A stretch of 35,931 bases of DNA from positions 1 through 35,931 of the forward strand of contig CADAKF010000003.1 of NCBI GenBank assembly GCA_902788415.1. Reading direction: 5' to 3'. Shown here piece after piece: positions 5,740 through 35,362 of this stretch; within the stretch, counting starts at the first letter, position 1; every line of letters begins with the position of its first letter. Both the position numbers and the translations under genes were made by a program. The stretch comes from an uncultured bacterium (lineage in GTDB: Bacteria > Verrucomicrobiota > Kiritimatiellia > RFP12 > UBA1067). The notes under the pieces were generated by a model, which saw only the letters and a list, made by a program, of their open reading frames with translations, had not been told where the DNA came from and searched no databases.

Positions 5740-7010
5740 GACAACCTCCTTAAAATGACTCCTTTGAGATACAAACCTTCCGGAAAGTTCAGCGCGACGG
5801 GATGATCCGCGCCCTGACGCGTCCGCCCGACCATCTGAAAGTCACGACGCGCGTCGACCGCCGCCTCCGCGAGCACCTTGTCGAACAGGTCGGACGTCAT
5901 CGCGCCCGAGCAGGAGAACGTCGCCAGGATCCCGTTCGGCCTCAAGAGCTTCATCGCGAGGAGATTGATGTCCTTATAGCCCCGCGCCGCCTTCTCGACC
6001 TGCGACTTGGTCGCCGCGAACTTCGGCGGATCAAGGACGACAAGGTCGAACGCCTTCCCCTCGTCGCGGCACCTGCGCAAATACTGGAAGACATCCGCCT
6101 CGACAAAGTCAAACCGCCTCCCGTCTTTAGCCTCAGGCCCTCCGCCAAACGTCAGCTCGGCATTGCGCCGCGCAAGCTCCAGCGCGTCGCGGGAGATGTC
6201 GACCTGCGTCACGTGCTTCGCACCGCCCGCCGCGGCCGCGAGACCGAACCCGCCCGTGTAGCAGAAGCAGTTGAGCACCTCGCGGCCCTTCGCAAACGCC
6301 CCCACCGCGGCCCGCGCGTCGCGCTGATCAAGGTAAAAGCCGGTCTTGTGTCCTTTGCGCACATCGACAAAATACCGAATGTCCCCCTCTTTGATCTCAA
6401 TCAGCTCCGGCGGCTCTTCGCCGGTCAAACATTCCAATCCTTCCAAACACTTCAAGCCTTCCTTCGCCCGCACATCAACGTCCGTGCGCGCGGAAACGGA
6501 CAAGGGCGCGGCCCCTGCGGGGAAGTTCGCCATCAGCGACTGGACAATCTCGTCCTTCCAACGCTCCGCGCCCGCGCTTGTGAACTGGCAGATGACATGT
6601 CCGTTGTAATAGTCGGCAACCACGCCGGGGAGTCCGTCGGATTCGGCATTGATCACGCGACAGGCATTTGTCGTCGACTCCGGCGCAAAAAAAGCCGCAC
6701 GGCGCGAAATCGACAGCGCAACCAGCTCAGCGACGAAAGCGCCGTCCGGGACCCTCTTCGGGTCAAACGACAGCATCCTGACACGAATCTGGCTCGCCGG
6801 CGAATAGCTGCCGTACCCGAGCGTCTCGCCTTCGGCGCTTACGACCTCGACCGTCTCGCCAGAGAGTGGGGAAGCGGAATCCTTTCCGCTTCCAGCAAAG
6901 GCAACGTCCGCTATTGCCCCGCTAAAAACCCATGGATGGTGCTTGCGGACGCTGTAGTCCCTTTTCGGCCTTAGGCAAATCTTGTGCACATTCGCTAACA
7001 GCTCTCTCAC
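5736..7010 (-). CDS. rlmI: 23S rRNA m5C methyltransferase, RlmI-like
   Basis: 424 residues from GTG 7010, which overlaps the iorA stop codon; a second GTG at 6989 would give 417. An earlier in-frame ORF inside iorA is out-of-frame translation of iorA. RDYSVRKHHPWVFSGAI and YGSYSPASQIRVRML match the N-terminal PUA domain of E. coli RlmI. FVDVRKGHKTGFYLDQRDARAAV, VLNCFCYTGGFGLAAA (SAM-binding loop), FDLVVLDPPKFA and LATFSCSGAM form the Rossmann methyltransferase domain; the last should hold the catalytic cysteine. It should methylate a cytosine of 23S rRNA; RlmI or a sister SAM-dependent rRNA methyltransferase is possible. Two in-frame repeats interrupt it: the palindromic element near residue 40, giving GSGKDSASPLS, and two 18-bp repeats (6430-6465) giving GLKCLEGLECL. 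Its end carries the ribosome-binding site of the next gene. Confidence 0.9.
   Translation of the reverse strand: MRELLANVHKICLRPKRDYSVRKHHPWVFSGAIADVAFAGSGKDSASPLSGETVEVVSAEGETLGYGSYSPASQIRVRMLSFDPKRVPDGAFVAELVALSISRRAAFFAPESTTNACRVINAESDGLPGVVADYYNGHVICQFTSAGAERWKDEIVQSLMANFPAGAAPLSVSARTDVDVRAKEGLKCLEGLECLTGEEPPELIEIKEGDIRYFVDVRKGHKTGFYLDQRDARAAVGAFAKGREVLNCFCYTGGFGLAAAAGGAKHVTQVDISRDALELARRNAELTFGGGPEAKDGRRFDFVEADVFQYLRRCRDEGKAFDLVVLDPPKFAATKSQVEKAARGYKDINLLAMKLLRPNGILATFSCSGAMTSDLFDKVLAEAAVDARRDFQMVGRTRQGADHPVALNFPEGLYLKGVILRRLS
6430..6465 (+). repeat. Two 18-bp (four 9-bp) tandem repeats in rlmI
   Basis: Four 9-bp units, CATTCCAAT, CCTTCCAAA, CACTTCAAG and CCTTCCTTC, form two 18-bp copies that differ at several bases. 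In the minus-strand frame they encode the GLKCLEGLECL segment between the PUA and methyltransferase domains, where RlmI homologues vary. Confidence 0.6.
6865..6891 (-). repeat. Palindromic in-gene element, copy 1 (in rlmI)
   Basis: 27-bp unit whose core AAGCGGAATCCTTTCCGCTT (6872-6891) has two perfect 8-bp arms around a 4-base loop. Read in the rlmI frame it gives SGKDSASPL near residue 40, between GAIADVAFAG and GETVEVV. E. coli RlmI (from memory) has a few residues there. Confidence 0.9.
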
Positions 7011-10852: not shown

Positions 10853-11495
10853 ACTCGCTCATCGTCGCTTCGCCGTCGTGCGAGATATTCTTCGCGGCAA
10901 TCACCTGCCAGAACGTCATCCAGAGGATCTTGAAATCGAGCCACGTCGACCGGCCGTCCACGTAATCGACGTCATAGCGGAACTTCGTCTCCCAGTCGAG
11001 CGCGTTCCGCCCGTGCACCTGCGCCCAGCCCGTGATCCCCGGCAGCACCTCGTGCCGACGGTTCTGCTCGGACGTGTAGCGCGGCAAATAGCGGACGGGT
11101 AGCGGACGCGGCCCCACGAGCGACATCTCGCCCTTCACGACGTTCCAAAGCTCCGGCAGCTCGTCCAGCGACGCCGCGCGGAGGAACCGCCCGAGACGCG
11201 TCAGCCGTTCCTCGTCCGTCCCCTCTCCCGCGCGCATCGTCCGGAACTTGTAGAGCGTGAATGGTCGTCCGTTCAGTCCTGCCCTGTCCTGTGTAAATAG
11301 GATAGGCCACCCCAGGTTCATCCAGACCGCAAGCGCGACGAGCGCCGCGACCGGGATCCAGATCGGCGCAAGAAAAACAATGATCGCCAGATCGAGAATG
11401 CGCTTCCCGCGATTGCGGTCCTTCGCGACCATGGGGACCGATCCCGCCGCCAGCATCCGGTTGAACTTCCACTTCACGAACGACACCGTCCTCAT
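10842..11495 (-). CDS. Polyprenyl-phosphate sugar-1-phosphate transferase (bacterial sugar transferase family)
   Basis: 217 residues, PF02397 type. A membrane segment (about 33-62, ILDLAIIVFLAPIWIPVAALVALAVW) precedes the cytoplasmic catalytic domain. Motifs: RAGLNGRPFTLYKFRTM, SLDELPELWNVVKGEMSLVGPRPL with the Asp-Glu catalytic pair of PglC-like enzymes, and LPGITGWAQVHGRNAL. The enzyme should move a sugar-1-phosphate from a UDP-sugar to undecaprenyl phosphate, the first step of surface polysaccharide or glycan assembly. No large N-terminal membrane domain is present, so it is the small monotopic type. It starts with ATGA overlapping the uvrB stop, so it is co-translated with a DNA-repair gene, and no polysaccharide genes are adjacent. 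The sugar donor is unknown. Confidence 0.93.
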   Translation of the reverse strand: MRTVSFVKWKFNRMLAAGSVPMVAKDRNRGKRILDLAIIVFLAPIWIPVAALVALAVWMNLGWPILFTQDRAGLNGRPFTLYKFRTMRAGEGTDEERLTRLGRFLRAASLDELPELWNVVKGEMSLVGPRPLPVRYLPRYTSEQNRRHEVLPGITGWAQVHGRNALDWETKFRYDVDYVDGRSTWLDFKILWMTFWQVIAAKNISHDGEATMSEFGA

Positions 11496-13522
11496 TTGCG
11501 TTTCTTCAGCTCCTTGATCTGATCACGAAGATACGCCGCCCGCTCAAACTCCAGGTTGTCCGCCGCCTCCAGCATGTCCTTCGTGAGTTCGGCAATCAAG
11601 TCAGCCGGCGAGGACTCTCGACCCGAGACAGAAGACGAACCCGTCCGCTGTACGACTTCGACTCCCGATTTCGACTTAAAGACATATGCCGACTCATTGA
11701 TCGCCCTCTTCACCGAATGCGGCGTAATCCCATGCTCTTCGTTATATTTAATCTGCTTCTCGCGGTGCCCTCTCGTGATCCTGAGCAAATCCCGGATCGC
11801 GTCCGTCTGATGGTCGGCATACAGAATGACACGTCCCTTCTCATGCCGCGCCGTGCGCCCCGCAGTCTGCACGAGCGACGTCGTCGACCTCAGGAACCCC
11901 TCCTTGTCCGCGTCGAGAATCGCCACAAGCGCAACCTCCGGAAGGTCCAGTCCCTCCCGGAGCAGGTTGATGCCCACCAAGACGTCGAACTCGCCCTTCC
12001 GAAGCCGCTGCAAAATCGCCACGCGCTCGATCGCGTCGATGTCGCTGTGCAGGTATTCAACGCGAATCCCCGCCTCGTGCAGATACTGGCTTAAATCCTC
12101 CGCCGACCTCTTCGTCAGCGTCGTCACCAAAACCCGCTCGCCCAGTGGAGAAGCGGAATCCTTTCCGCTTGTAGAAGAAGAACTCCGTGGACCATTAACA
12201 ACCTTCTCAATCTCCCCTATCAAATCATCGATCTGCCCCTTCAGCGGCCTGATCTCGATCTCGGGATCCAAGAGTCCCGTCGGCCGGATCACCTGCTCGG
12301 CGACCGTCTTCGCCTCACCATACTCGTAGTCGCCCGGCGTCGCCGAGCAGTAGACGATCTGCTTGACCTTCGCGTTAAACTCGTCGAAGGTGAGGGGGCG
12401 GTTGTCCTTGGCGCTCGGCAGCCGGAAGCCGTAGTCGACGAGTTTCGTCTTCCGCGCCTGGTCGCCGTTGTACATCGCGCGGATCTGCGGAACCGAGACG
12501 TGACTTTCATCGATGATGGTGAGGAAGTCGTCCGGGAAGTAGTCTATGAGGCACTCGCCCGCCGAACCCGGGGCGCGTCCCGTGAGCGGCCTCGAGTAAT
12601 TCTCGATGCCGTTGCAGTAGCCGAGCTCGCGCATCATCTCGATGTCGTATTCGGTGCGTTCGCGAAGCCGCTGCGCCTCGAGGAGCTTCCCCTTGGACGC
12701 GAAGAACTTGAGCCGTTCGTCGAGCTCGGCCTCGATGCGCTTGAACGCCGCCTCGAAACGGTCCTTGCCCATCACAAACTGCTTCGCGGGCGTAATGACG
12801 ACGGTCGGCATCGTGACGCCACATTTGCCCGTGAGTGGATCCAGCTCCCTTATCGAATCGACGTCATCGCCAAAAAACTCGACGCGAATCGCCTTCGTCT
12901 CGTACGCAGGGAAGATGTCCAGGACGTCGCCCCTCACCCGGAACGTCCCCGGCTGGAAGTCAAAGTCATTCCGCGTATACTGCGCCTCAACGAGCTCGGC
13001 GATGACCCCACTTCTTCCTCGACCTAGACCTCCGACCTCGACCTTGACCGTAAGGTCCCTATACTCATCCGACTCCCCCAACCCGTAGATGCAGCTCACG
13101 GACGATACGACGATCACGTCCTTCCGTGCGATGAGCGCATTTGTCGCGGCAAGGCGGTAACGCTCGATTTCCTCGTTGATGGACGCGTCCTTCTCGATGT
13201 AGGTATCGGTCTGGGGGATGTAGGCTTCGGGCTGGTAGTAGTCGTAGTAGGAGATGAAGTACTCGACGGCGTTTTCGGGAAAGAACTCCTTCAGCTCGGC
13301 GAAGAGCTGCGCGGCGAGCGTCTTGTTGTGGCTCAGGATCAGCGTCGGACGATTCCACTTGGCGATTAAATTCGCCATCGTGAAGGTCTTGCCCGACCCC
13401 GTGACACCCTGCAGGATGAGGCGATCTTCGCCGCGCTTCAGCCCCTCGTAAAGCGCCGCGATCGCCTCCGGCTGGTCTCCAGTCGGCTTGAATTTCGACT
13501 TCAGCTTGAATATTTCGCCCAT
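11492..13522 (-). CDS. uvrB: Excinuclease ABC subunit B
   Basis: 676 residues, the usual UvrB size. Walker A GVTGSGKT (39-46); the damage-binding beta-hairpin YFISYYDYYQPEAYIPQTDTYIEKD (about 87-111); the DESH box; motif RVLVTTLTKRSAEDLSQYL; QTAGRTARH; and a C-terminal UVR motif (AADNLEFERAAYLRDQIKELK) for UvrC contact. It verifies DNA damage with UvrA and loads UvrC in nucleotide excision repair. The palindromic element sits near residue 451, so that NGPRSSSSTSGKDSASPLG replaces the short loop before RVLVTTLTK. Heptamers (11613-11640) fill the linker before the UVR motif, and a GACC-rich repeat (13021-13049) encodes VEVGGLGRGRSG. The -10 element lies 8 nt before the ATG, so the mRNA should be nearly leaderless. 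Confidence 0.98.
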   Translation of the reverse strand: MGEIFKLKSKFKPTGDQPEAIAALYEGLKRGEDRLILQGVTGSGKTFTMANLIAKWNRPTLILSHNKTLAAQLFAELKEFFPENAVEYFISYYDYYQPEAYIPQTDTYIEKDASINEEIERYRLAATNALIARKDVIVVSSVSCIYGLGESDEYRDLTVKVEVGGLGRGRSGVIAELVEAQYTRNDFDFQPGTFRVRGDVLDIFPAYETKAIRVEFFGDDVDSIRELDPLTGKCGVTMPTVVITPAKQFVMGKDRFEAAFKRIEAELDERLKFFASKGKLLEAQRLRERTEYDIEMMRELGYCNGIENYSRPLTGRAPGSAGECLIDYFPDDFLTIIDESHVSVPQIRAMYNGDQARKTKLVDYGFRLPSAKDNRPLTFDEFNAKVKQIVYCSATPGDYEYGEAKTVAEQVIRPTGLLDPEIEIRPLKGQIDDLIGEIEKVVNGPRSSSSTSGKDSASPLGERVLVTTLTKRSAEDLSQYLHEAGIRVEYLHSDIDAIERVAILQRLRKGEFDVLVGINLLREGLDLPEVALVAILDADKEGFLRSTTSLVQTAGRTARHEKGRVILYADHQTDAIRDLLRITRGHREKQIKYNEEHGITPHSVKRAINESAYVFKSKSGVEVVQRTGSSSVSGRESSPADLIAELTKDMLEAADNLEFERAAYLRDQIKELKKRK
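11613..11640 (+). repeat. Four degenerate heptamers in the uvrB linker
   Basis: Units GACTCTC, GACCCGA, GACAGAA and GACGAAC, all beginning GAC with a strict 7-bp period. In the uvrB frame they encode the Ser-rich SSSVSGRES segment before the UVR motif. Confidence 0.65.
12144..12170 (-). repeat. Palindromic in-gene element, copy 2 (in uvrB)
   Basis: 27-bp unit with core AAGCGGAATCCTTTCCGCTT at 12151-12170. In the uvrB frame it reads SGKDSASPL. UvrB proteins I recall have a short charged loop at this place, directly before the conserved helicase motif. Confidence 0.92.
13021..13049 (+). repeat. GACC-rich quasi-tandem repeat in uvrB
   Basis: GACC recurs at 13021, 13027, 13034, 13040 and 13046, at steps of 6 or 7 bp. 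It encodes the Gly-rich VEVGGLGRGRSG segment in the frame of uvrB. The period is not strict, so this is weaker than the other repeat blocks. Confidence 0.4.
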
Positions 13523-13732: not shown

Positions 13733-13970
13733 CTACTGCTCGAGCGCCAGAATCGCAAGCCGGCAGTGGCTCAGCGCGTCCGTCGCGATGTACACCGCCT
13801 CCAGCTTGTCCTCGCCCGCGTGCCTGATCATCTCCTCGCAGCTCGGATACGCCTTTTTCGCCTTCACGCGCTCCTGCAGGAGCTTCAGCTTCTCGGGCAG
13901 CAGCTCGGCGCACGCGACGACCTCCACGTTCGGATGATCCTGGTAGGCGAAGGCGGAGCCGAAGTCGCAG
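13733..13970 (-). pseudogene. Remnant of a Gfo/Idh/MocA-family oxidoreductase
   Basis: The minus-strand frame ending at TAG 13735-13733 encodes a fragment of about 79 residues. FGSAFAYQDHPNVEVVACAELLPEKLKLLQERV and EAVYIATDALSHCRLAILALEQ match the N-terminal NAD(P)-binding domain of this family: helix after the glycine loop, acidic end of strand 2, then the conserved DAVyIATp..H segment. The first strand with the GxGxxG loop is missing, and the frame stops exactly where GKHV would continue, so the substrate-binding domain is absent too. No start codon fits the missing part. A TATAAT-like element (13971-13979) lies directly before it and contains the deacetylase stop codon. It looks like an internal fragment left by deletion or recombination beside the tRNA gene. 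Confidence 0.75.
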
Positions 13971-13979
13971 ATTATATCA
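13971..13979 (-). promoter_or_regulatory. Extended -10-like element at the deacetylase stop codon
   Basis: TGATATAAT on the minus strand. The TGA is the deacetylase stop codon (13979-13977). No intact gene follows, only the oxidoreductase remnant, so it may be a stranded promoter or chance. Confidence 0.4.
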
Positions 13980-14693
13980 AAATCCACCGTAGGGACACAC
14001 GCAAACCTTGCCCGCCTTCTCCTGCTCCCGGATGTCGTCCAGGTAGCCGCAAAACGCCTCGACGCTCGCGAACGGCTTCCAGCCGCCGCCTTCCGGACGG
14101 ATGCCGTGCACGAGGAAGTCGGTCCTCTCGGCGTTCCGCGCACGGAGCTCGTCGATGGTGGCGTCGACGCGGCGATCGAAGTCACCGAAGCAGTTGCGAT
14201 TCACCAGCATCGTCTCGACACCGCAGGTCTTCGCGATGTCGACCACCGCAGGCGTCCAGCGCGTGAACGGCAGGCAGAGAAGCCGCGGATACACCCCCGT
14301 CTCGGTCTTGATCTTCTCGCAGCACGCCGCGACTTGCCGGCGGATTTCGTTCGTGTTGCCGGCACGGGCCAGCGCGGCCAGGTCGACGTGCGAGACCGTA
14401 TGGGCGGCGATCTCGTGTCCGCGCTTGACCATGTCGCGCACGTCGTCCCACGTCACGTGCCCGTCCGTGCCGACCTTGTCGGTGATAATGCAGAAGAGCC
14501 CCTTCCAGCCGCGCTTCTCAAGCTCCGGCACGGCAATCGAGTAATGATCCTTAATTCCGTCGTCAAAGGTCAGCGTAAGCTGCAGCGGCGAGACCGTGTA
14601 GACGAGGTTTGCGCTCTTGATGCCATTGTTTGCGGCCGCGGACGCAAACGCCGCACCGACCGCCATGCCAACCGCCAACATCAGCTTCCTCAT
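13977..14693 (-). CDS. Secreted polysaccharide deacetylase (NodB domain)
   Basis: 238 residues. The signal peptide MRKLMLAVGMAVGAAFASAAA has a likely cleavage site near residue 20. The NodB fold shows LTLTFDDG with D44-D45 (catalytic base and metal ligand) and AAHTVSH with H98 and H102, completing the Asp-His-His metal site. LCLPFTRWTP is the likely motif 3 region. Carbohydrate esterase family 4 members remove acetyl groups from peptidoglycan, chitin-like or xylan polymers in the envelope or outside the cell; the substrate is not evident. It is the last intact gene of the carB-galE group, 76 nt after the UDG-like gene, with AAGGAAG-type ribosome-binding sequence upstream. Its stop codon lies in a -10-like element, and the 76-nt gap holds nothing I recognise. 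Confidence 0.88.
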   Translation of the reverse strand: MRKLMLAVGMAVGAAFASAAANNGIKSANLVYTVSPLQLTLTFDDGIKDHYSIAVPELEKRGWKGLFCIITDKVGTDGHVTWDDVRDMVKRGHEIAAHTVSHVDLAALARAGNTNEIRRQVAACCEKIKTETGVYPRLLCLPFTRWTPAVVDIAKTCGVETMLVNRNCFGDFDRRVDATIDELRARNAERTDFLVHGIRPEGGGWKPFASVEAFCGYLDDIREQEKAGKVCVCPYGGF

Positions 14694-14769
14694 ATATTGC
14701 CTTTCTTCCTTCAGTTCCTTCGCCAGCCGCTACTTGCACAGCCGTTTCAGATGCATTCCCTTCATTGTG

Positions 14770-15372
14770 TCAGAGCCCTTGCGCCAGGCGCTGGGCGACG
14801 GCCTTCAGGCTCCGCCACATGTCCTGCTTGAGTTTCTGCACGGCGGGCGTCACCGCACCAAAGCGGAGGATGTATTCCGGCGAATAGGTGATGAGGACGT
14901 CCTCGCCCGTCGGCAGCTTCGTCCACTGACCGGGCTCACCTTTCATCCCGGGGAAGTAAAGCTTCAGCGCCCGTCCGCCCAGGACGACGAGAACCTTCGC
15001 CCTCTTCGGCACAGGCGGCACGACCACGATCGGCGAATTCTCCGCCGTGCGTCCGAGCGCCGTGATGATCTTCGCCATCATCTCCACGCCCTTCGGGCTG
15101 AGCGGCCGGTCGTGAAGGAAGACGAGGTCGCCCATCGCCGGTCTCGCGTCTCGCGTCTCAAGTCCTGTCCGCGTCTCGCGTCCCAGGTCTTTCGTCTTAA
15201 GTCCTGCCGTCGTCCCCGAAGGAGCCGAGACCTGAGGCGGTGGACGCGAGGCAACGGCCTGAGGCGCCGGCGCCAGCAGCCCGCGGTCAACCTCGACCGT
15301 GCGGACACCAAGCTCACGTTCGAGTTCCAGCGCGGCCTCGAGTCCGTCCAGAATGTAGTCGAGCGCCGTCAT
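14770..15372 (-). CDS. Degenerate uracil-DNA-glycosylase-like protein
   Basis: 200 residues from ATG 15372, which overlaps the stop of the upstream gene (ATGA); the longer ORF start at 15438 is rejected. The N-terminus MTALDYILDGLEAALELERELGVRTVEVDRG resembles the helical extension on family-4-like UDGs. AKVLVVLGGRALKLYFPGMKGEPGQWTKL and ITYSPEYILRF, then KQDMWRSLKAV, resemble the C-terminal half of that fold. The first catalytic motif (GEAPG-type) and the iron-sulfur cysteines are not seen, and the HPS motif reads SPE. It is therefore probably inactive in uracil removal, or a divergent relative. A Pro/Ser-rich linker (about 40-75) is largely encoded by nine 7-bp repeats (15141-15207). The function is uncertain. 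Confidence 0.6.
   Translation of the reverse strand: MTALDYILDGLEAALELERELGVRTVEVDRGLLAPAPQAVASRPPPQVSAPSGTTAGLKTKDLGRETRTGLETRDARPAMGDLVFLHDRPLSPKGVEMMAKIITALGRTAENSPIVVVPPVPKRAKVLVVLGGRALKLYFPGMKGEPGQWTKLPTGEDVLITYSPEYILRFGAVTPAVQKLKQDMWRSLKAVAQRLAQGL
15141..15207 (+). repeat. Nine degenerate heptamers in the UDG-like gene
   Basis: Four units (15141-15168: GTCTCGC twice, GTCTCAA, GTCCTGT), a 4-nt break, then five units (15173-15207: GTCTCGC, GTCCCAG, GTCTTTC, GTCTTAA, GTCCTGC). Every unit begins GTC. Both halves start with GTCTCGC and end with GTCCTG, as if a larger block had been duplicated. They encode the linker segment around GLKTKDLGRETRTGLETRD. Confidence 0.85.
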
Positions 15373-17996
15373 CTGAGGCTTTTCTTCTCGCAGAAGTCTC
15401 GCACGCGAGCAGGCCACTCGGCGATTACGCCGGCCCAACTGAAGGGCCGTCCCAATCCGAGCGTCTCGGGCGGATTGAGCGCCTTGCGGACGAACTCCGC
15501 GGCAGACTTCTCGTCACCCTTCGCGAGCGCCCCGTCCGCCAACGTTACAAGCGCCTCCTGATAGAGCGGCAGCGGACGTTCCCCGAGCTCGCTCGGCAGG
15601 AAGTTGATCCTCTCGAGAAACTTCACCGCCTCGGCGTGCGCACCTGTCTTGACAAGCGCACGGGCATAGGCGATCTGCAGGCCCGGGTTCTCCGGCGTGC
15701 GCGCAAGATAGCCCTTGAACACATCGCGCGCAGACGCCCAGTTGCCTTCCTCTGCAAACGTGCGGCCATGCGCAAGGCCCACGCGCCAGCTGTCCGCAAT
15801 CGCCGCAGCCGCGCGCAGGTCGGCACGCGCCGCCGCGCCCGTCCGGCGGGACGCGCGGTAAAGATAGAACTCAGCCTCGTCCGGCCGATCTGCGCACTTC
15901 TCAAGGAGCACGTCACCCTCCGTCGTCCGCAGCTTCGCGTTCAGGAAAAGCGCAAGCAGGTAGTCGAACTTCCAGCTGTTGCCGTTCTCGGACGCCCAGC
16001 GTAGCGCCGGCAGCGTCTCGAGCCGCCAGGGGAACGCGAAGCGGACGGACAGTCCCGCCACCCGAGCGAGGGCCTTCACGTCTCGTCCCAGGTACGCCGC
16101 GCGAATCGCCGCGACGACCGAATTCGCCGCGGATCCGTAGATCTTCTCCGCCTCATCCCCAAGCCCGGCACTTTCATAGAGTCCGGCCGTCTCGAGGTAA
16201 GTTTCGTTCGGCGCGTGGTTGCGCACGTTGACCTTGTAATCCCTCTCGAGCCCGAGTTTCACGGCCTCGTAGCGGAAGGCATGGAACAGCGGGAAGTCCT
16301 TGAGCGCGGATGCGATGATCTGCCGCGCCGCCTCGACCTGCCCCGTCTTCCGCAGCGAAACGCCGAGCAGCCACAGCGCGTCGCACGCCTCGGCGTTGGC
16401 TGCGAGCGCCCGCGCCGCCGTGTCTCCGGCGAGACGCCAGTTCCCCTCGCGCGCATGCGACTTGGCGACCAGCGTCAGCGCCGCCGCGCGGAACTCGGGC
16501 GAATAGGCGGCGAGACCGAGGCGTTCGCGCGCCCGTGGCAGCTTGCCGGTCTCAAAGGCGACGAGGCCTTCGAGGTAATTGGCCTCCGGCTCGTAGGTGT
16601 TGACGGCGAGGGCCTTGTCAAGAACCCGCACAGCCTCTTCGAAGCGTCCGAACTCGGTCAGCAGGCCGCCGAGCGTGACGAGCGACTTGGAGAAGCAGGG
16701 GTCCTTCGCCAGCGATTCGCGGAGAAGCCGCTCGGCGTCGTCCTTGTAGAGGCCCTTGCGGACGCCGCCCTGGCGGAGCCCCGCGAAGATGGCGGCCTGC
16801 GCCTTCATCCAGAGACCGTAGGCGCCGTTCCAGTCGAAGTCCTCCGGAAACTCCGTCGGACGGTCCGCGGCAATTTCGGACTTCGCGCGCTTCTCCAGCT
16901 CGGCTCGATCGCGCACGAAGCCCCACTTCTCGACGAAGACGTCCGTCGTGCCCGGCACGAAAGTCGGATAGGCGAACGGGGTCTTCCAGCAGACGTCCTG
17001 CGGCTGCTGGAAGACGCGGCCGGACTGCAGTTCGACGTACTGTCCGTCGGCATCCGTGAGGAGGTCCTCCCAGATGCCGCCCGCGCGGGAGAGTCCCCAG
17101 AGCCAGATCTTGCGCCCGTACTTCTGGTCTGTCTCGCTGAAATGGTAGGCACCGAGCTCCGCCTTCGGCCACCAGACGCCGAAAAAGCGGTTATCGCCGT
17201 TAATTATATGGTAGCTCTTGTGGTCCGCGTTCCGCGGCGAAAACCAGGAGACGCCGAAGGCGTTGTTCGAATAGACGGAGATGTCGCGCCCCTCCTCGTC
17301 CAGCGGCCACGGATGCGCATCGCCCTCATGCCCGATGTAGTTCCGCCCGGGAAAGAGGTATTCGGGGTTCTCGCGCTTGACGCCGAAGCCGGCGTTCATC
17401 CATTGGTAATAGGGACGGCGAAGCCCCGAGCCGTTGAACCAGACGGTCCGCGTCTCGAACTCGCGTCCGGATGCCGGCAGGCGCACTTCGACCTGCCAGG
17501 TCGTGCGGCAGATCATCTCGGTGAGCCCGCAGAAGTAGCTGACGGACCCGTCGTCATTCTCACGGACGCACCAGTCGACCGGCAGCGACGTGTAGGGTCC
17601 GTGGCCGACGATGCCGAAGTTGAACTCAATGCCGCCCGAGGTCCAGGGTCCGCACATCGCGATATCCCTGAACTTCACGGCGTGGTTGAAGTAAATGAAG
17701 TCCTGTCCCGACTTCTTCTCCTCCGCACCCCAGATCTTGCCGCCCACCTCCGGCAAAATCGTCAGCTTCATCTCGTCATTCTCGAGGACGACGGCCGTCC
17801 AGGTCCGGTTCGACGCCGTTGCCGTAAAGCCGTCCGAACGGCAGTACGGCCAGAACTTCGAGTCCGTCCGCGGCACGGGATCGGGATCGTCATATCCGTA
17901 GGTCGGCAGCGTCAGCTCCGTGACAGAGACTTTCGCCGCGCCGAAGAGCGCAAAAGCCCCCAGCGCGGCGACGGCGAAGATGGCGGCCTTCGTCAC
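15369..17996 (-). CDS. Exported DUF5107 and TPR-repeat protein
   Basis: 875 residues from GTG 17996, which overlaps the galE stop codon (GTGA); the longer ORF from 18149 would read galE out of frame. The N-terminus TKAAIFAVAALGAFALFGAAK is a signal peptide. Residues about 45-330 contain TWTAVVLENDEMKLTILPEVGGKIW, WTSGGIEFNFGIVGHGPYTSLPVDW and QPQDVCWKTPFAYPTFVPG, typical of DUF5107, which has a galactose-mutarotase-like beta fold. The C-terminal half is built of helical TPR-like repeats (AVRVLDKALAVNTYEPEANYLEGL; ALLVSLRKTGQVEAARQI-type segments). It should be periplasmic or surface-exposed and bind carbohydrate. It is coupled to galE upstream and the UDG-like gene downstream (ATGA). The link to sugar metabolism is inferred from neighbours and fold; no enzymatic activity can be claimed. 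Confidence 0.82.
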   Translation of the reverse strand: MTKAAIFAVAALGAFALFGAAKVSVTELTLPTYGYDDPDPVPRTDSKFWPYCRSDGFTATASNRTWTAVVLENDEMKLTILPEVGGKIWGAEEKKSGQDFIYFNHAVKFRDIAMCGPWTSGGIEFNFGIVGHGPYTSLPVDWCVRENDDGSVSYFCGLTEMICRTTWQVEVRLPASGREFETRTVWFNGSGLRRPYYQWMNAGFGVKRENPEYLFPGRNYIGHEGDAHPWPLDEEGRDISVYSNNAFGVSWFSPRNADHKSYHIINGDNRFFGVWWPKAELGAYHFSETDQKYGRKIWLWGLSRAGGIWEDLLTDADGQYVELQSGRVFQQPQDVCWKTPFAYPTFVPGTTDVFVEKWGFVRDRAELEKRAKSEIAADRPTEFPEDFDWNGAYGLWMKAQAAIFAGLRQGGVRKGLYKDDAERLLRESLAKDPCFSKSLVTLGGLLTEFGRFEEAVRVLDKALAVNTYEPEANYLEGLVAFETGKLPRARERLGLAAYSPEFRAAALTLVAKSHAREGNWRLAGDTAARALAANAEACDALWLLGVSLRKTGQVEAARQIIASALKDFPLFHAFRYEAVKLGLERDYKVNVRNHAPNETYLETAGLYESAGLGDEAEKIYGSAANSVVAAIRAAYLGRDVKALARVAGLSVRFAFPWRLETLPALRWASENGNSWKFDYLLALFLNAKLRTTEGDVLLEKCADRPDEAEFYLYRASRRTGAAARADLRAAAAIADSWRVGLAHGRTFAEEGNWASARDVFKGYLARTPENPGLQIAYARALVKTGAHAEAVKFLERINFLPSELGERPLPLYQEALVTLADGALAKGDEKSAAEFVRKALNPPETLGLGRPFSWAGVIAEWPARVRDFCEKKSLR

Positions 17997-27882: not shown

Positions 27883-27891
27883 ATTATATCA
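27883..27891 (-). promoter_or_regulatory. Extended -10 promoter of the Mla operon, overlapping a stop codon
   Basis: TGATATAAT on the minus strand. The TAA inside TATAAT (27886-27884) is the stop codon of the M3 peptidase gene. Only 7 nt (TCTTCGT) separate the hexamer from the lipoprotein ATG, so the transcript should be leaderless. Confidence 0.72.
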
Positions 27892-29818
27892 AATCTTGCT
27901 GACGAAGGAGTGCGAAAATTTCAGGGTCGCGTTCACGGAAGGCACGGAAGACCTCCAACGCAGATTTGGATCCACCAAGCGCCAGCACCGTCTCGCGGTA
28001 TTTCGCGCCGACGCGCCGCATCGCCTCATCATCATCAAGGCCTGCCTCCTCAAATGCCCCGAAGCAGTCCGCACTCATCACCTCCGCCCACTTGTATCCG
28101 TAATACCCCGCGGCATATCCGCCCGCGAAGATATGCGTAAACGCGCACAGAAACCGGTTCCCCTCGATCATCGGCAAGCCAAAATGCCCGAACACCTCGC
28201 GCTGACACGAGAACGGAGAAGCGGAATCCTTTCCGCTTGAATGAAGGAGGACATCCACTTTCGCGAACGCCAGCTGCCTCCGGCAGGCCGTCGCCGCGCG
28301 GAAGTTCTTCGCCGCGCGCACCTTCGCCTTCAGCTCTGCTGGAACGGCGATTCCCGTTCTGTCATCAAGACACCAGTTTTCCATGAACTGACTCGCGACC
28401 TCCACGGCATCCCACTCGACGAGATTAATCCCCGCCGCGTCTTCCTCTCCGACCCGCGTCAGCATGCATTGCAGCGCATGCCCAAACTCATGGAACAGCG
28501 TCTCCACCTCCCGAAACGGCAAAAAGCACTTACCATTCTCGTCCTTTTTCGGAAAGTTCGTGACAACCACAGCAAGAGGAAGCGTCCGCTGCTCGACTTC
28601 GCCTTCGACCTTCACCTCCCTCCGATTCCTGAACTCATTCATCCAGGCGCCGCCAGACTTGAGTCCCGAACGCACGAACGGATCGAAATAGAAGTTGGCA
28701 ATGGTCTCGCCCTTCTCCTTCACCGCGAAGAACCGCACGTCCTCGTGCCACACGGACGGCTTGTCCGCCACCTCCTCGACATCCACGTCGAAAAGGAACT
28801 TCACCATCCGGAAAAGCCCCTTCACAACATCCTCCAGCTCGAAGTGCTTCTTCAGCTCCTCCTCGCTGTAGGCATACTTTTTTTCCCGCAGACGCTCGGC
28901 CTCATAAGCCAAATCCCAAGGTTCGCCGTCCAACCTCTCCTCTTCCGCCTTTCCCTTCGTCGCCGCATCGAGGTCGTCGATCATCTTCATGACCGCAGCG
29001 ACGGACGGCGCGCACTTCGTCGCGAGCGATTTCTCGGCGTAGTTCTTAAAGCCCAGGATCTCTGCCTCCTCTTGGCGGAGCCTCAGGATTTCCGCAATGC
29101 GCGGCTCGTTCTCCGGCGCCCGCGCGGCTCGCGCCCGATAGAGCTTCTCGCGCACCTCGCGGTCCGCACAGTGCTTCATCGTCTCGGGATAGTTCGCGTC
29201 ATCGATCGTATAGGTCTTTCCGTCCTTCTCGTACTTGAACGCCGCCGTCGCGTCGATGACCGTATTATGGAAGTCCGCCCCGAGCTTCGCGAGCTTCATC
29301 TGGATCTCGTTGAAACGCTCCTTCTTCACGCCTTCAAGCCCCACGCCGGCGAGCTCCGCCCCCTGCGCCATCTTCTCCAAAATCCGACGCCGCACAGAAA
29401 AAATCAAACCATTCTGCACATGGTCGGATGGTCGGTTGCTCCGATGCTCCGATGACAAATCGCCTTTCAGCGACTCCGCGTTCAAAATCGATTTTGCCGT
29501 CTCATACAACCTCTTCGACTGACTCACCCTCAAGCTAAACGCCACGATCTTCGGCTGCCACTCCTCCTCGACCTTGCGCCACGCCTCGGAGTTCATCACG
29601 CCGAGCATGTGCGAGACCATACCCCAGCACCGCCACAGCCCCCGCGTCGCATCGTCCAACTTCCAGACAAAGTTCTCGTAAGAGAGTGGAGAAGCGGAAT
29701 CCTTTCCGCTTCCCGCCGCCTCGATCGCGGCGACCGCCTTCTCCGCCTCATCCAAGAGCCGCGGCAGTTCCGCCGCGGCGAACTCCGGGGTAAAATCTTT
29801 CCAATCAGGAAAACTCAT
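27884..29818 (-). CDS. M3-family zinc oligopeptidase (oligoendopeptidase / oligopeptidase A type)
   Basis: 644 residues from ATG 29818 with GGGAG just upstream. The frame stays open to 30478, but that part is out-of-frame argF. The zinc motif HEFGH (443-447) lies in VETLFHEFGHALQCML, and the C-terminal FTHIFAGGYAAGYYGYKWAEVMSADCFGAFEEAGL is the M3 substrate-binding signature. It should cleave short peptides in the cytoplasm. Three repeats are built in: palindromic elements near residues 36 (GSGKDSASPLS) and 527 (SSGKDSASPFS), and an 8-bp repeat (29421-29452) encoding SSEHRSNRPSD near residue 125. The second palindrome lies in a variable stretch before the signature, where homologues such as OpdA have more residues. 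It follows argF by 41 nt; the gap is a heptamer repeat. Confidence 0.94.
   Translation of the reverse strand: MSFPDWKDFTPEFAAAELPRLLDEAEKAVAAIEAAGSGKDSASPLSYENFVWKLDDATRGLWRCWGMVSHMLGVMNSEAWRKVEEEWQPKIVAFSLRVSQSKRLYETAKSILNAESLKGDLSSEHRSNRPSDHVQNGLIFSVRRRILEKMAQGAELAGVGLEGVKKERFNEIQMKLAKLGADFHNTVIDATAAFKYEKDGKTYTIDDANYPETMKHCADREVREKLYRARAARAPENEPRIAEILRLRQEEAEILGFKNYAEKSLATKCAPSVAAVMKMIDDLDAATKGKAEEERLDGEPWDLAYEAERLREKKYAYSEEELKKHFELEDVVKGLFRMVKFLFDVDVEEVADKPSVWHEDVRFFAVKEKGETIANFYFDPFVRSGLKSGGAWMNEFRNRREVKVEGEVEQRTLPLAVVVTNFPKKDENGKCFLPFREVETLFHEFGHALQCMLTRVGEEDAAGINLVEWDAVEVASQFMENWCLDDRTGIAVPAELKAKVRAAKNFRAATACRRQLAFAKVDVLLHSSGKDSASPFSCQREVFGHFGLPMIEGNRFLCAFTHIFAGGYAAGYYGYKWAEVMSADCFGAFEEAGLDDDEAMRRVGAKYRETVLALGGSKSALEVFRAFRERDPEIFALLRQQDLI
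28212..28238 (-). repeat. Palindromic in-gene element, copy 3 (M3 peptidase, C-terminal part)
   Basis: Core AAGCGGAATCCTTTCCGCTT at 28219-28238 is intact; the flank reads AACGGAG instead of AGTGGAG, so the peptide is SGKDSASPF. It lies near residue 527 of the M3 peptidase. Confidence 0.9.
29421..29452 (+). repeat. Four 8-bp tandem units in the M3 peptidase gene
   Basis: TGGTCGGA, TGGTCGGT, TGCTCCGA and TGCTCCGA, 32 bp with a strict 8-bp period. In the minus-strand frame they encode SSEHRSNRPSD, a segment I do not expect in the M3 family. Confidence 0.7.
29685..29711 (-). repeat. Palindromic in-gene element, copy 4 (M3 peptidase, N-terminal part)
   Basis: Core at 29692-29711 with the full AGTGGAG flank; the flanking AGAGAGTGG and CC also match copy 1. 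It encodes SGKDSASPL near residue 36, between AVAAIEAAG and SYENFVWKL. Confidence 0.92.
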
Positions 29819-29831
29819 GGCTTCTCCCGCA

Positions 29832-29866
29832 CGAACAGCTAACAGATAACAGCTAACGGCTAAATG
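29832..29866 (+). repeat. Five degenerate heptamers at the argF to M3-peptidase junction
   Basis: Units CGAACAG, CTAACAG, ATAACAG, CTAACGG and CTAAATG. They fill most of the 41-nt gap, and the argF stop codon TAG (29862-29860) lies in the last unit. CTAACAG and CTAACGG also occur in the block at 5692-5733. Confidence 0.75.
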
Positions 29867-30914: not shown

Positions 30915-32117
30915 TCAGCGGACGACGGACTCGACCTCGCCTTTCGCAAAGCGGGTCGTGAGGACATCGCCGACCTTGATGTTCTTCGCGTCCTTGACGA
31001 CGGATCCGTCCGCAGCCGTCGTCAGCGAATAACCTCGGTCAAGGACGCCGTAAGGCGAATAGGCCTTCAGCTTCGCCGCAGCGTTCTCAAGGCGGGACTC
31101 GATGCGTTGCAGATGAAGCCTAAGCGCGGGCATAAGCCGCGGACGGAGCCGCTCCAGCCGCCTTTCGGCATTCGACTGGGCTATTGTCAGCGCAGACGCA
31201 AGCGCATCCGCCAGCTGATCCACGCGCTGGGCGAAGAACTCGCCCCTGCTCCGCAGAGAAGTTGAGAGCTGAGAGTTAAGGGTTGAGAGTTGAGAAGTCA
31301 GGTCCGAGAGTACCGGCACGGCGATTTCCGCCGCAATGGACGGCGTGCCGGCCCGCTTGTCCGCGGCAAAGTCGCAAAGCGTGAAGTCCGTCTCGTGCCC
31401 GACCGCGCTGATCGTCGGAATCTTCGATGCCGCGACCTCCCGCACAAGCGCCTCGTCATTGAAGCAAAAGAGATCTTCGAAGCTCCCGCCGCCTCTCGCC
31501 ACAATCAGCAAATCCGCCCACCGATCCGAATTGAAATAACGAATTCCCTCGATGATTGTCCGCGGCGCCTCCGCACCTTGCACAAGGCACGGGAAGAGCC
31601 GGATTTCCAGCGCCGGAAAGCGCCGCGTCAAAACGGTGCACATGTCGTGGATGACGGCGCCCGCCTCGCTCGTCACGATGCCGATCCGCCGCGGCAAATA
31701 AGGCAGCGAACGTTTCCGCGCCGCATCGAAGAGTCCTTCCTTCTCAAGCTTCGCCTTGAGCTCGAGGTACTTCTGCATGAGATCGCCCTCGCCGACGAGC
31801 TTCGCCGCGAGGACAGTCAGCTGATAGTTGCCGCGCGGCGCGTAGACGGAGACGTTTCCGTAGACGAGTACCTTCGCGCCGTCCTTGAGCCCCGCCTTTG
31901 CCTTGCAGCGCGCGAGGGAGCTTGAGAACATAACGCAGGAAATTTGCGCGCCGGAGTCCTTCAGGGTGAAGTAGGCGTGGCCGGACGGATAAAGCCGCCA
32001 TCCGCCGATCTCGGCCTCGACGTAGATGCGCGTCCACTTCGCCTCCAGCGTCGCCTTCAGCTCCGCCGTCAGGCTCGACACCGAATACGGCTTCGGAAGC
32101 TCTTTCTCCGTACTCAC
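30915..32117 (-). CDS. xseA: Exodeoxyribonuclease VII, large subunit
   Basis: 400 residues from GTG 32117, slightly short for XseA (about 450). The N-terminal OB fold is KPYSVSSLTAELKATLEAKWTRIYVEAEIGGWRLYPSGHAYFTLKD. The catalytic part has RRIGIVTSEAGAVIHDM, LLIVARGGGSFEDLFCFNDE and AVGHETDFTLCDFAAD. The coiled-coil arm is followed by the C-terminal YSPYGVLDRGYSLTT. With the small subunit XseB it degrades single-stranded DNA in repair. Between catalytic part and arm, heptamers (31261-31295) encode TSQLSTLNSQLSTS, a likely insertion in a variable region. A weak AAGGTGAGA lies before the start. It follows ftsW by 16 nt; xseB is not adjacent. Confidence 0.97.
   Translation of the reverse strand: MSTEKELPKPYSVSSLTAELKATLEAKWTRIYVEAEIGGWRLYPSGHAYFTLKDSGAQISCVMFSSSLARCKAKAGLKDGAKVLVYGNVSVYAPRGNYQLTVLAAKLVGEGDLMQKYLELKAKLEKEGLFDAARKRSLPYLPRRIGIVTSEAGAVIHDMCTVLTRRFPALEIRLFPCLVQGAEAPRTIIEGIRYFNSDRWADLLIVARGGGSFEDLFCFNDEALVREVAASKIPTISAVGHETDFTLCDFAADKRAGTPSIAAEIAVPVLSDLTSQLSTLNSQLSTSLRSRGEFFAQRVDQLADALASALTIAQSNAERRLERLRPRLMPALRLHLQRIESRLENAAAKLKAYSPYGVLDRGYSLTTAADGSVVKDAKNIKVGDVLTTRFAKGEVESVVR
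31261..31295 (+). repeat. Five degenerate heptamers in xseA
   Basis: Units GTTGAGA, GCTGAGA, GTTAAGG, GTTGAGA and GTTGAGA. A sixth, AGTCAGG (31296-31302), is more distant. In the xseA frame they give QLSTLNSQLST. Confidence 0.8.
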
Positions 32118-33245: not shown

Positions 33246-34280
33246 TTACTGCTGCGCGTCGGCCGGCAGCTTGATGACCTGCCCGGGAACGAGCTGGTCG
33301 CCCTCGGCCATGTTGTTGAGCTCGCGGATGTCCGCGGCGGAAACACCCCAACGGATGGAAACGCCCGTCATGTCATCGCCCTCCTGGACGAGATACGTCA
33401 TCGTCGGAGCGGCGGCCGACTTCTCGGCCTTCTTCTCCTCAAGCTGCTCGAGAGCGGCGGCGGCATCCTTCGACTCTGTCGCCACAGGAGCGGCAGGCGC
33501 CTCGACCGGCTTCGCCTCGTTCTTCTCGACAACCGGAGCCGCAACTTCCTGCTCAACAACCTTCGCAACCGGCTTCACCTCGGCCTTCGCCACGGCCGGA
33601 GCCGCCGCCTTCGAGGCAGGAATCTTCAGCTTCTGGCCGACCTTGAGCGAATTGGAGGAAAGGCCATTGAGTTCCTTGAGCTGACGGATGTTGAGCCCAT
33701 TGCCATAGGCAATCGCCCCAAGCGTGTCGCCGTTCTTGACGACATACTCCTTCGTCGCACCCGTGTACGGCGTAAAGCCCTTCTTGGAGGTCGACTTCTT
33801 CGCAGCAGGCGTCTCGGCCTTCGCGACGGCAGGAGCCGTCTGAACGCCCACGTCGATCTTACCCGGAAGCTTGATCTTCTGCCCAACCCAGATAACATCC
33901 TTCTTGATGGACGGATTGAGACGCTTGATCGAGCTGATCGTCACGTTGTACTTCTTGGAGATCTTCGCGAGATAGTCGCCGTTCTGGACGACGTAAATCG
34001 TGTACTCGGGCTCAACCGGCTTCGACACGTCAGCGACAACCACGGGCTTCGTCTCAACCACACACTTGCAGTCCGGAGCGCTGCAGGTGCACGGCTTCGC
34101 ATGCTTCGTGCCGGGAGGACAAGTGCACTTCGCGGCAACAGGCTCGATATCAACCGGCGTCGCCTCGACTTCCTTCACCTCATTCTGCGAAACTGAGCCA
34201 GACCGCTTGAAATCAGGGTCCTTGCAGCCAGCAAGAGTCGCGACTGCCGCGATGCCGAGTACCACTCCGAACTTGTTCAT
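33246..34280 (-). CDS. Lipoprotein with three LysM domains and a cysteine cluster
   Basis: 344 residues. The lipoprotein signal is MNKFGVVLGIAAVATLAGC with Cys19 as acylated residue. Residues 52-73 contain three Cys-x-Cys pairs (52/54, 64/66, 71/73) with Pro, Lys and His. Three LysM domains follow: YTIYVVQNGDYLAKISKKYNVTISSIKRLNP, KEYVVKNGDTLGAIAYGNGLNIRQLKELNG and MTYLVQEGDDMTGVSIRWGVSAADIRELNN, joined by Ala/Pro/Lys-rich linkers. LysM binds peptidoglycan, so it should tether the outer or inner membrane to the wall. It lies between murD (ATGA overlap, AAGGA upstream) and ftsW (5-nt gap), so a role in wall growth or division is likely by context. The cysteine cluster is unusual, and its role is unknown. 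Confidence 0.92.
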   Translation of the reverse strand: MNKFGVVLGIAAVATLAGCKDPDFKRSGSVSQNEVKEVEATPVDIEPVAAKCTCPPGTKHAKPCTCSAPDCKCVVETKPVVVADVSKPVEPEYTIYVVQNGDYLAKISKKYNVTISSIKRLNPSIKKDVIWVGQKIKLPGKIDVGVQTAPAVAKAETPAAKKSTSKKGFTPYTGATKEYVVKNGDTLGAIAYGNGLNIRQLKELNGLSSNSLKVGQKLKIPASKAAAPAVAKAEVKPVAKVVEQEVAAPVVEKNEAKPVEAPAAPVATESKDAAAALEQLEEKKAEKSAAAPTMTYLVQEGDDMTGVSIRWGVSAADIRELNNMAEGDQLVPGQVIKLPADAQQ

Positions 34281-35362
34281 GTCTTTTGTCCTTCTTTTTT
34301 GACGAGTCGCGCGAAGACCTCCCCGCGCTCCCCATAACTTTTAAACTGATCAAAACTCGCAGCTCCGGGCGACAGCAGCACCGTCTCTCCCTTCGCCGCC
34401 TCGCGCCTCGCCGCCTCCACCGCCCGATCCAGCGTCTCGCAGATTTCACAATCTACCACACTGCTCCAGGCCGCGAAAAAGGCTTTCGCGCTCTGCCCAA
34501 TAAGATACACTTTTTTGACCCACTCTGTCAAGGCGGAGAGTGCCATCTTTGGATCGTCGCCTTTCGGCAGCCCGCCGGCGATGAGACGAACGCCTGAACC
34601 CGCCATCTTCACGCCGGCAACAAGCGCCGCGATCGAAGTGGCCTTGGAGTCGTCAATATAACGCACACCGTCAATTTCGGCGACAAGATTCATTCGGTGC
34701 GGCAGCGGTCTGAACCCACGGAACGCCTTTGCGATCGCCGCGTCTTCCAAACCCGCCACGCGCATCAGGTCGACCGCAATCGCCGCATTCCCCGCCAAAA
34801 TGTCATTGTCGAAATAAGAATCCACCCACAAAGTGGAGAAGCGAAATCCTTTCCGCTTCAGCCCATCCGACTCCCCTCCGACGAACCCCTTCCTTGCAAA
34901 AGTCAACAGCTTCCGCTTCAGCCCGTGATAAACCTCGACGCTCCCATGTCGATCGAGATGGTCTTCCTGCAAGTTGAGGATCGCCGCGGCTTCGAATGTG
35001 TCCGGCGGAAGCGTCGTCGTCTCCAACTGGAAGGAACTGACCTCCACGACCGCCCAACCAGGTTTCTCCGAAACGAGGTCCGTCACGGGCCGTCCGTAGT
35101 TCCCGCACGGGACGCCGCCAATCGCGTCCGCGACAAGTTTGACAATGGAGCTCTTCCCCTTCGATCCCGTCACGGCCAGAAGCTTCCAGCCGCGGCGTTT
35201 CAGCTCCTCGCAGCCGAGCTGCAGTTCACTCTTCGTCCGAAGTCCCGGACTCACGACAACGCAGTCGTATCCGTCCGCAAAGTCAACCTCGTATCCCTGC
35301 GCCCTCAGATGCGCAGCCGCGGCCGTGCCGCTTTTCCCCGTGCCTAGAACGAGCGCCTTCAC
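34277..35362 (-). CDS. murD: UDP-N-acetylmuramoyl-alanine:D-glutamate ligase (compact MurD)
   Basis: 361 residues from GTG 35362, which overlaps the upstream stop codon (GTGA); MurD is usually about 440. The ATP loop reads VTGSKGKSS, followed by EVSSFQLE, LNLQEDHLDRHGS, RYIDDSKATS and LLSPGAASFDQFKSYGERGEVFARLV, all Mur-ligase signatures and MurD-type at the C-terminus. It adds D-glutamate to UDP-MurNAc-L-Ala in the cytoplasm. The N-terminal domain is shortened (GYEVDFADGYDCVVVSPGLRTK), and part of the central domain is missing. In its place is the palindromic element near residue 169, read in a frame different from the other copies (LKRKGFRFST). GLKRK occurs twice, at about 148 and 168. The active site looks intact. 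Confidence 0.93.
   Translation of the reverse strand: MKALVLGTGKSGTAAAAHLRAQGYEVDFADGYDCVVVSPGLRTKSELQLGCEELKRRGWKLLAVTGSKGKSSIVKLVADAIGGVPCGNYGRPVTDLVSEKPGWAVVEVSSFQLETTTLPPDTFEAAAILNLQEDHLDRHGSVEVYHGLKRKLLTFARKGFVGGESDGLKRKGFRFSTLWVDSYFDNDILAGNAAIAVDLMRVAGLEDAAIAKAFRGFRPLPHRMNLVAEIDGVRYIDDSKATSIAALVAGVKMAGSGVRLIAGGLPKGDDPKMALSALTEWVKKVYLIGQSAKAFFAAWSSVVDCEICETLDRAVEAARREAAKGETVLLSPGAASFDQFKSYGERGEVFARLVKKEGQKT
34832..34858 (-). repeat. Palindromic in-gene element, copy 5 (in murD, different frame)
   Basis: Core AAGCGAAATCCTTTCCGCTT (34839-34858) has one mismatch to the consensus; the AGTGGAG flank is intact. In murD it reads LKRKGFRFST instead of SGKDSASPL. Confidence 0.85.

Follow-up and report, generated by a model that had tools for sequence, protein, structure and literature searches.

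The M3 peptidase gene and its repeats

We analysed a window of 35,931 nucleotides (the whole stretch of DNA under study), in which a gene for an M3 family peptidase of the oligopeptidase A type lies on the minus strand at 27884..29818. Judged from its reading frame and translation, the gene is open over 644 codons (644 aa). The deduced protein matched the Peptidase_M3 profile PF01432 at 344 bits and scored under the cut-off of the NCBIfam oligopeptidase A model. The HEXXH motif and the downstream Glu that mark the family are present, and H443, E444, H447, and E473, which we take to be the zinc binders, are invariant in the 38 aligned proteins. With an open gene, a Peptidase_M3 match, and these invariant residues, the catalytic motifs are intact, as the original prediction held. 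The nearest relative of the protein is 77% identical, and the nearest kin of the gene among named bins belong to Kiritimatiellae and related bins, several of them from ruminant guts. A structure model built with a 38-row alignment had a mean pLDDT of 92.3; its best match, by sequence and fold alike, was PDB 4ka8/4ka7, and the model superimposed on both of these organellar oligopeptidases with a TM score of 0.92.

The gene carries repeats at three places. The first is a putative REP copy at 29686..29711, which encodes the peptide AGSGKDSASPL (residues 36-46) and is oriented on the plus strand, the M3 gene reading the opposite strand. It consists of a GTGGAG head (29686-29691) and a 20-nt stem-loop (29692-29711), whose core (29693-29710) corresponds to residues 37-43. 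The second putative REP copy, at 28215..28238 and also on the plus strand, encodes SSGKDSASPF (residues about 527-536); its head is decayed to GGAG (28215-28218), and the stem-loop (28219-28238) has its core at 28220-28237, corresponding to residues 528-534. These residues lie about 28 residues ahead of the conserved HIFAGGYAAGYYGYKW segment, counted along the M3 sequence. Both palindromic elements predicted near residues 36 and 527 are thus present, as two copies of one 20-nt palindrome. The third repeat is the octamer tandem repeat predicted near residue 125, which we found in frame at 29437..29454 (M3 residues about 122-128) with 2.2 perfect copies of TGCTCCGA. Its score of 36 is unexceptional, as 20 of the 32 rows of the window's tandem-repeat table score at least as high.

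In 340 kb of DNA from the window's own genome, the 12-mer GATGCTCCGATG of the octamer repeat turned up again in stretches L028 and L045; stretch L004 has an octamer array related to it. Arrays of the unit GATGCTCC occur at four places (window 29415-29465, L004:7572, L028:1078, and L045:1451), and those of the window and L045 have GATGACAAATCGC after them in common; the octamer arrays are therefore a second, minor kind of dispersed repeat. Tandem repeats of seven bases (e.g., AACAGCT and CTCAACT types) were also seen, with perfect arrays of at least three copies in 11 of 60 stretches of the same genome (window 29834-29863 and 31260-31295; L001, L012, L018, L019, L025, L028, L029, and L034-L037). 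The array at 31260-31295 lies in frame within the gene at 30915-32117.

We compared the lengths of the three regions with those of 36 relatives, two of which (rows L073 and L094) seem to be identical in the displayed parts. The residue-36 region has a net gain of 7 aa: 34 of the 36 rows are exactly 7 aa shorter, and the remaining two, L096 and L089, are 5 and 2 aa shorter, respectively. The loop around residue 125 varies widely in length in all rows, that of the window being the longest. The residue-527 loop has 15 aa; that of the closest relative has 13, and other relatives reach 18. Because this length is inside the range of the relatives, the element replaced or overwrote loop sequence without net lengthening. 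The original prediction spoke of three in-frame insertions of two kinds, and two kinds of repeat at three places, all in frame, are indeed present; an insertion is clear only at residue 36. As predicted, the segments are not common to M3 peptidases generally among the 36 relatives compared.

In the confident structure model, all three places lie between helices, which agrees with the suggestion that they are loops. Residues 36-46 form a loop between helices 11-35 and 47-74, and residues 528-534 one between helices 508-527 and 535-545; the stretch with the octamer repeat (residues 120-133) has a pLDDT below 50.

A hairpin family dispersed in one genome

The palindrome is not confined to the peptidase gene. 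Its 18-nt core occurs five times in the window with up to three mismatches, compared with 0.10 expected from shuffles, and three of these occurrences lie beyond M3, one with a mismatch. One core, at 6873..6890 (minus strand), encodes residues 41-47 of an RlmI-like methyltransferase (gene 5736-7010; best NCBIfam RlmI score 401.6 bits, below the cut-off of 712) in the frame SGKDSASPL. The core with one mismatch, at 34840..34857 (minus strand), is read in another frame (KRKGFRFST) in murD (34277-35362; TIGR01087, 258.6 bits, above the cut-off of 211.95). The third is at 12152-12169 within a 48-nt element (12143..12190, minus strand) of uvrB (11492..13522, minus strand, 676 aa). The UvrB protein matched NF003673 at 992.7 bits (cut-off 743), and the match (5-674) spans both sides of the element.

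In the bin to which the window belongs (1.9 Mb, 147 contigs, 83% complete), the 18-mer is present without mismatch 116 times, 57 times on one strand and 59 times on the other, and the reversed control pattern is absent. That the repeats are ordinary loops of low complexity, or palindromes that arose by chance in a gene rich in G+C, would fit the octamer repeat, which taken alone is within the window's run of scores. For the palindrome, this explanation is rejected by the counts of 116 against 0 and of 5 against 0.10, and overall we regard it as extremely improbable. The prediction that one gene had accumulated the insertions therefore needs to be restated, since the palindrome is a genome-wide family and M3 is just one of 47 predicted carrier genes sampled.

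Among the genomes searched, the family is restricted to its own. The 18-mer had no copy in 39 other genomes, 23 of them from the same genus, and a 24-mer had no match in named public genomes, where records of the window's own genome may be left out. An exact 20-mer had no match in viral contigs, and a phage origin of the element was rejected. A known RNA family was likewise rejected, as the sole match above thresholds in an Rfam scan of the window was a tRNA.

We sampled the DNA around 100 of the 116 copies (339,591 bases), in which the core matched 115 times with up to two mismatches and 112 times with up to one. On the other strand, the element reads AGTGG-RG-AAGCGGAA-TCCT-TTCCGCTT, that is, a 5' head (GTGG in 76 of 110 copies and GGGG in 15), a two-base RG spacer, and a palindrome with a perfect 8-bp stem and a 4-nt loop. 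The stem is nearly invariant, silent positions included. A single hairpin folds at -8.4 kcal/mol (z -4.5 vs shuffles). Many copies stand single, and 28 neighbour pairs lie within 70 nt, of which eight are in the -+ and three in the +- arrangement. The -+ pairs are 48-62 nt apart, seven of the eight being spaced 48-49 nt, and one example, an inverted pair of 83 nt, folds as a single long hairpin (-34.7 kcal/mol, z -10.1 vs shuffles). The flanks of most listed copies are unrelated, apart from a few recurring upstream types, and several contigs end at element copies. In stretch L042, two adjacent genes, one of them for a KpsF-like isomerase, each contain three in-frame tandem copies of an element-bearing 51-nt unit (17 aa) at 2585-2704 and 4472-4591.

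Reading frame and sequence change in carrier genes

To place the copies, we predicted genes with a simple codon-score method trained on the window. By this prediction, 61 of the 112 copies fall within 47 genes, and the other 51 are intergenic. Coding sequence makes up 92.8% of the sampled DNA, and the element is still about tenfold denser between genes. In the sense direction, frame 0 (SGKDSASPL) accounts for 33 of 38 gene-by-frame entries (binomial p 1.3e-11 vs one third), a way of counting that only partly removes the dependence among tandem copies and pairs. In the antisense direction, frame 2 (GEAESFPL) accounts for 11 of 15 entries. A strict subset kept only copies that have coding-like flanks on either side and lie 60 nt or more from each end of a gene of 120 aa or longer; these 43 copies in 37 genes show the same sense bias (26 of 30).

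The bias could have arisen from the insertion mechanism, if the enzyme picks a short target in a fixed codon phase, rather than from selection on the peptide. Stop codons cannot account for the bias, as the common unit contains none in any sense frame, and REP enzymes are reported, in the account given in PMC8266576, to select short cleavage sites. However, no target motif was identified, and genic copies in frames 1 and 2 do exist, making up five of the 46 sense copies (the other 41 being in frame 0). Furthermore, a TGA precedes four of these five copies and none of the 41, as the open frames demand. We consider a mechanistic origin of the bias rather unlikely and infer that selection is its cause.

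Selection might also have kept the peptide for a function, SGKDSASPL being a tag or linker that was copied to numerous proteins (e.g., as a site of modification or processing). The strong preference for one frame and the 17-aa in-frame tandem repeats of the two L042 proteins would fit such a role. Against it, nearly half of the copies are intergenic (51 of 112, as above), the DNA hairpin is almost invariant even at silent positions, and the opposite orientation yields another peptide. The host proteins are unrelated to each other (uvrB, murD, hrpB, hydF-like, and kpsF-like), and the peptide that a sister species carries at these loops is unrelated. A functional peptide thus seems very unlikely, and we favour selection against copies that break proteins.

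Comparison with orthologs revealed both net insertion and replacement. Relative to every one of 17 orthologs from the genus, the UvrB element is a clean addition of exactly 16 aa (48 nt, PRSSSSTSGKDSASPL). The sites without the element, at uvrB (17 of 17) and at M3 residue 36 (34 of 36), are all in other species. In RibF, the element occupies a place where the native sequence of a relative is longer, and the HrpB linker is widely variable in length; profile matches continue across the element in UvrB, HrpB, and RibF. Some copies, in RibF and HrpB and at M3 residue 527, replaced native sequence.

Sister species, transposases, and the origin of the family

The closest relative sampled, G048, has a palindrome of its own, found in a 400 kb k-mer screen and unrelated to that of the window. 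It is present in 93 exact 24-mer copies in G048 and in none of 57 other genomes of the genus. Its 14-mer core, with up to one mismatch, gave 48 matches, of which a few look like chance and 34 are in predicted genes; 15 of the 21 sense copies use frame 1, and 11 of the 13 antisense copies use frame 2. The k-mer screen was extended to eight more genomes with samples of 13-100 kb (only 13 kb, with 17.5% G+C, for G050). Among the samples of the same genus, it gave one further hairpin family, in G008, the samples being so small that absence says little. This third palindrome occurs 22 times in G008 and is absent from nine other genomes. In the same screen, two order-level relatives had repeats of other kinds. 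The G048 sample (L173-L192) also contains at least two more repeated hairpins, CGGCTCGCGGTACG with 11 copies and a GACGCGACAAGAGTGTCGCGTC type with nine; hairpins of the GACGCGACAAGAGTGTCGCGTC type are also repeated around another RAYT-like gene, in L286.

Eight sites in seven genes could be compared between the window's species and the G048 sample, one of them (the L053 site) at only 41% identity. At four of the eight, those in the HydF-like, HrpB, TIM-barrel, and ferredoxin-like proteins, G048 has a REP or REP pair of its own family in the corresponding position, variant copies being recognised by eye. Orthologous loops in this genus may be refilled repeatedly with new frame-selected peptides as REP families turn over between species, a proposal that we put forward only tentatively. 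An explanation that we hold to be equally doubtful is that each common site had an ancestral REP, which each family rewrote by recombination, as opposed to repeated new insertion into loops that tolerate it. The coincidence at four of the eight sites speaks for such rewriting. However, no mixed or intermediate copy was seen, and in the ferredoxin-like linker the window's element is absent from all 21 other rows, three of which (L305, L306, and L310) carry another insert of low complexity there, consistent with a linker that tolerates inserts.

Candidate enzymes were found in both sister species. In G048, a gene for a 221-aa RAYT-like protein (L173:14098-14760, minus strand) lies amid ten REP copies of that species (13766-15457), and in G008, a RAYT-like gene (L249:338-958, minus strand) lies between copies of that species' palindrome at 219 and 1246/1277. 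We call these proteins RAYT-like because REP_Tyr_transpos, their best NCBIfam family, scored 59.8 and 62.5 bits, respectively, under the cut-off of 80. The G048 protein as a query found matches in nine of 56 genomes of the genus and none in the window's genome, a weak negative given the bin's completeness of 83%. Three Y1_Tnp matches occur in the window's genome, two of them above the Pfam cut-off, and these genes were rejected as the RAYT since the sampled DNA around them has no element copy. A Y1 transposase fragment at a contig start (L062:1-420) looks like an internally deleted copy of the L060 gene. Several RAYT-like loci of other members of the genus (e.g., L277, L278, L285, and L290) are bordered on either side by repeated hairpins of their own, and REP-RAYT pairs are suggested to be common in the genus. 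A RAYT flanked by the window's element was not found in the 83% complete bin; because several contigs end at element copies, the presumed cognate enzyme may lie in the missing part of the genome. We do not class the window's family as a demonstrated REP-RAYT system.

A REP is a short palindromic stem-loop of 20-40 bp that occurs in high copy, and a REPIN joins two inverted REPs, with a spacer, into one hairpin. As described in PMC3686654, REPs combine a GT(A/G)G tetranucleotide with a palindrome and are almost exclusively intergenic. The window's element resembles the REP/REPIN-RAYT (TnpAREP) systems, in the accounts given in PMC3116915, PMC3686654, and PMC8266576, in its GT(A/G)G-type head, short perfect stem, high copy number, species-specific sequence, and inverted pairs that form a long hairpin. 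The RAYT gene flanked by copies in those systems is matched in G048 and G008, whereas no cognate RAYT was found in the window's genome, and the heads of the sister-species elements, TTGGAG and GGAG, are not of the GT(A/G)G type. Unlike the almost exclusively intergenic REPs of PMC3686654, more than half of the window's copies are in predicted genes, yet the family is denser between genes. This is a difference from the definition and not an exclusion, because intragenic REPs are recorded in PMC3733652. That survey of 2013 describes GTAG and CGTC REPs inside genes of several species, most numerous in Opitutus terrae (a Verrucomicrobium) and Rickettsia conorii. The targets include uvrA and uvrB (uvrB in Rickettsia), some genes were hit twice, and in two Xanthomonas species recB carries different REPs at nearly the same position. 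It suggested flexible linkers or loops as the locations of REPs. Like the REPs of O. terrae and R. conorii in that survey, the copies of the window's family occur in frame in known proteins as singles and dimers. The family differs from those REPs in sequence and lineage, and adds a measured frame preference and the four sites in common with a sister species. Rickettsia palindromic elements, as reviewed in PMC10969869, are likewise palindromes in frame in unrelated proteins and compatible with folding; they are about 150 bp long, compared with 20-48 bp for the window's element, or about 83 bp as a pair. A literature search for Kiritimatiellae and palindromic repeats gave nothing evident on the subject, judging by titles and abstracts. 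The kind of repeat is already known, and the window's family is a new sequence in a new lineage.

We consider it likely that the two M3 palindromes are species-specific REP/REPIN copies, probably moved by a RAYT, which survived in loops and in one frame through selection. Short hairpins with a GT(A/G)G head, single or in inverted pairs, would have spread through the genome, with a REP-associated tyrosine transposase (RAYT) most likely moving them in single-stranded form, as the association in the two sister species suggests. Copies would land in genes and between genes, and a copy with a net length change of a multiple of three would leave the gene open because the hairpin is free of stops in all three sense frames. 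Selection would remove copies that break proteins, so that the survivors would be found in loops or linkers, mostly in the frame S-G-K-D-S-A-S-P-L, a small polar peptide. The M3 peptidase would have kept two hairpin copies and an octamer array of the second repeat kind, all in loops. The replacement of native sequence described above counts against this explanation, as simple transposition gives none. So do the failure to find a RAYT of the G048 type in the 83% complete bin, the three Y1_Tnp matches without an element copy in the sampled DNA around them, and the scores of the RAYT-like proteins under the family cut-off; nor was a target duplication established.

Selfish DNA of this kind can add small pieces to proteins without breaking genes. 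The more than 100 near-identical copies of one genome, found in more than 40 predicted genes of the sample, are a natural experiment on the places and reading frames in which a protein can accommodate a short additional peptide, and the two sister species, whose corresponding loops differ in sequence, offer a test of loop tolerance against site history. If loops are indeed refilled in this way, the REPs of this genus would be a lasting supply of short insertions in proteins and not extragenic DNA. Gut Kiritimatiellae join the few lineages with many intragenic REPs.
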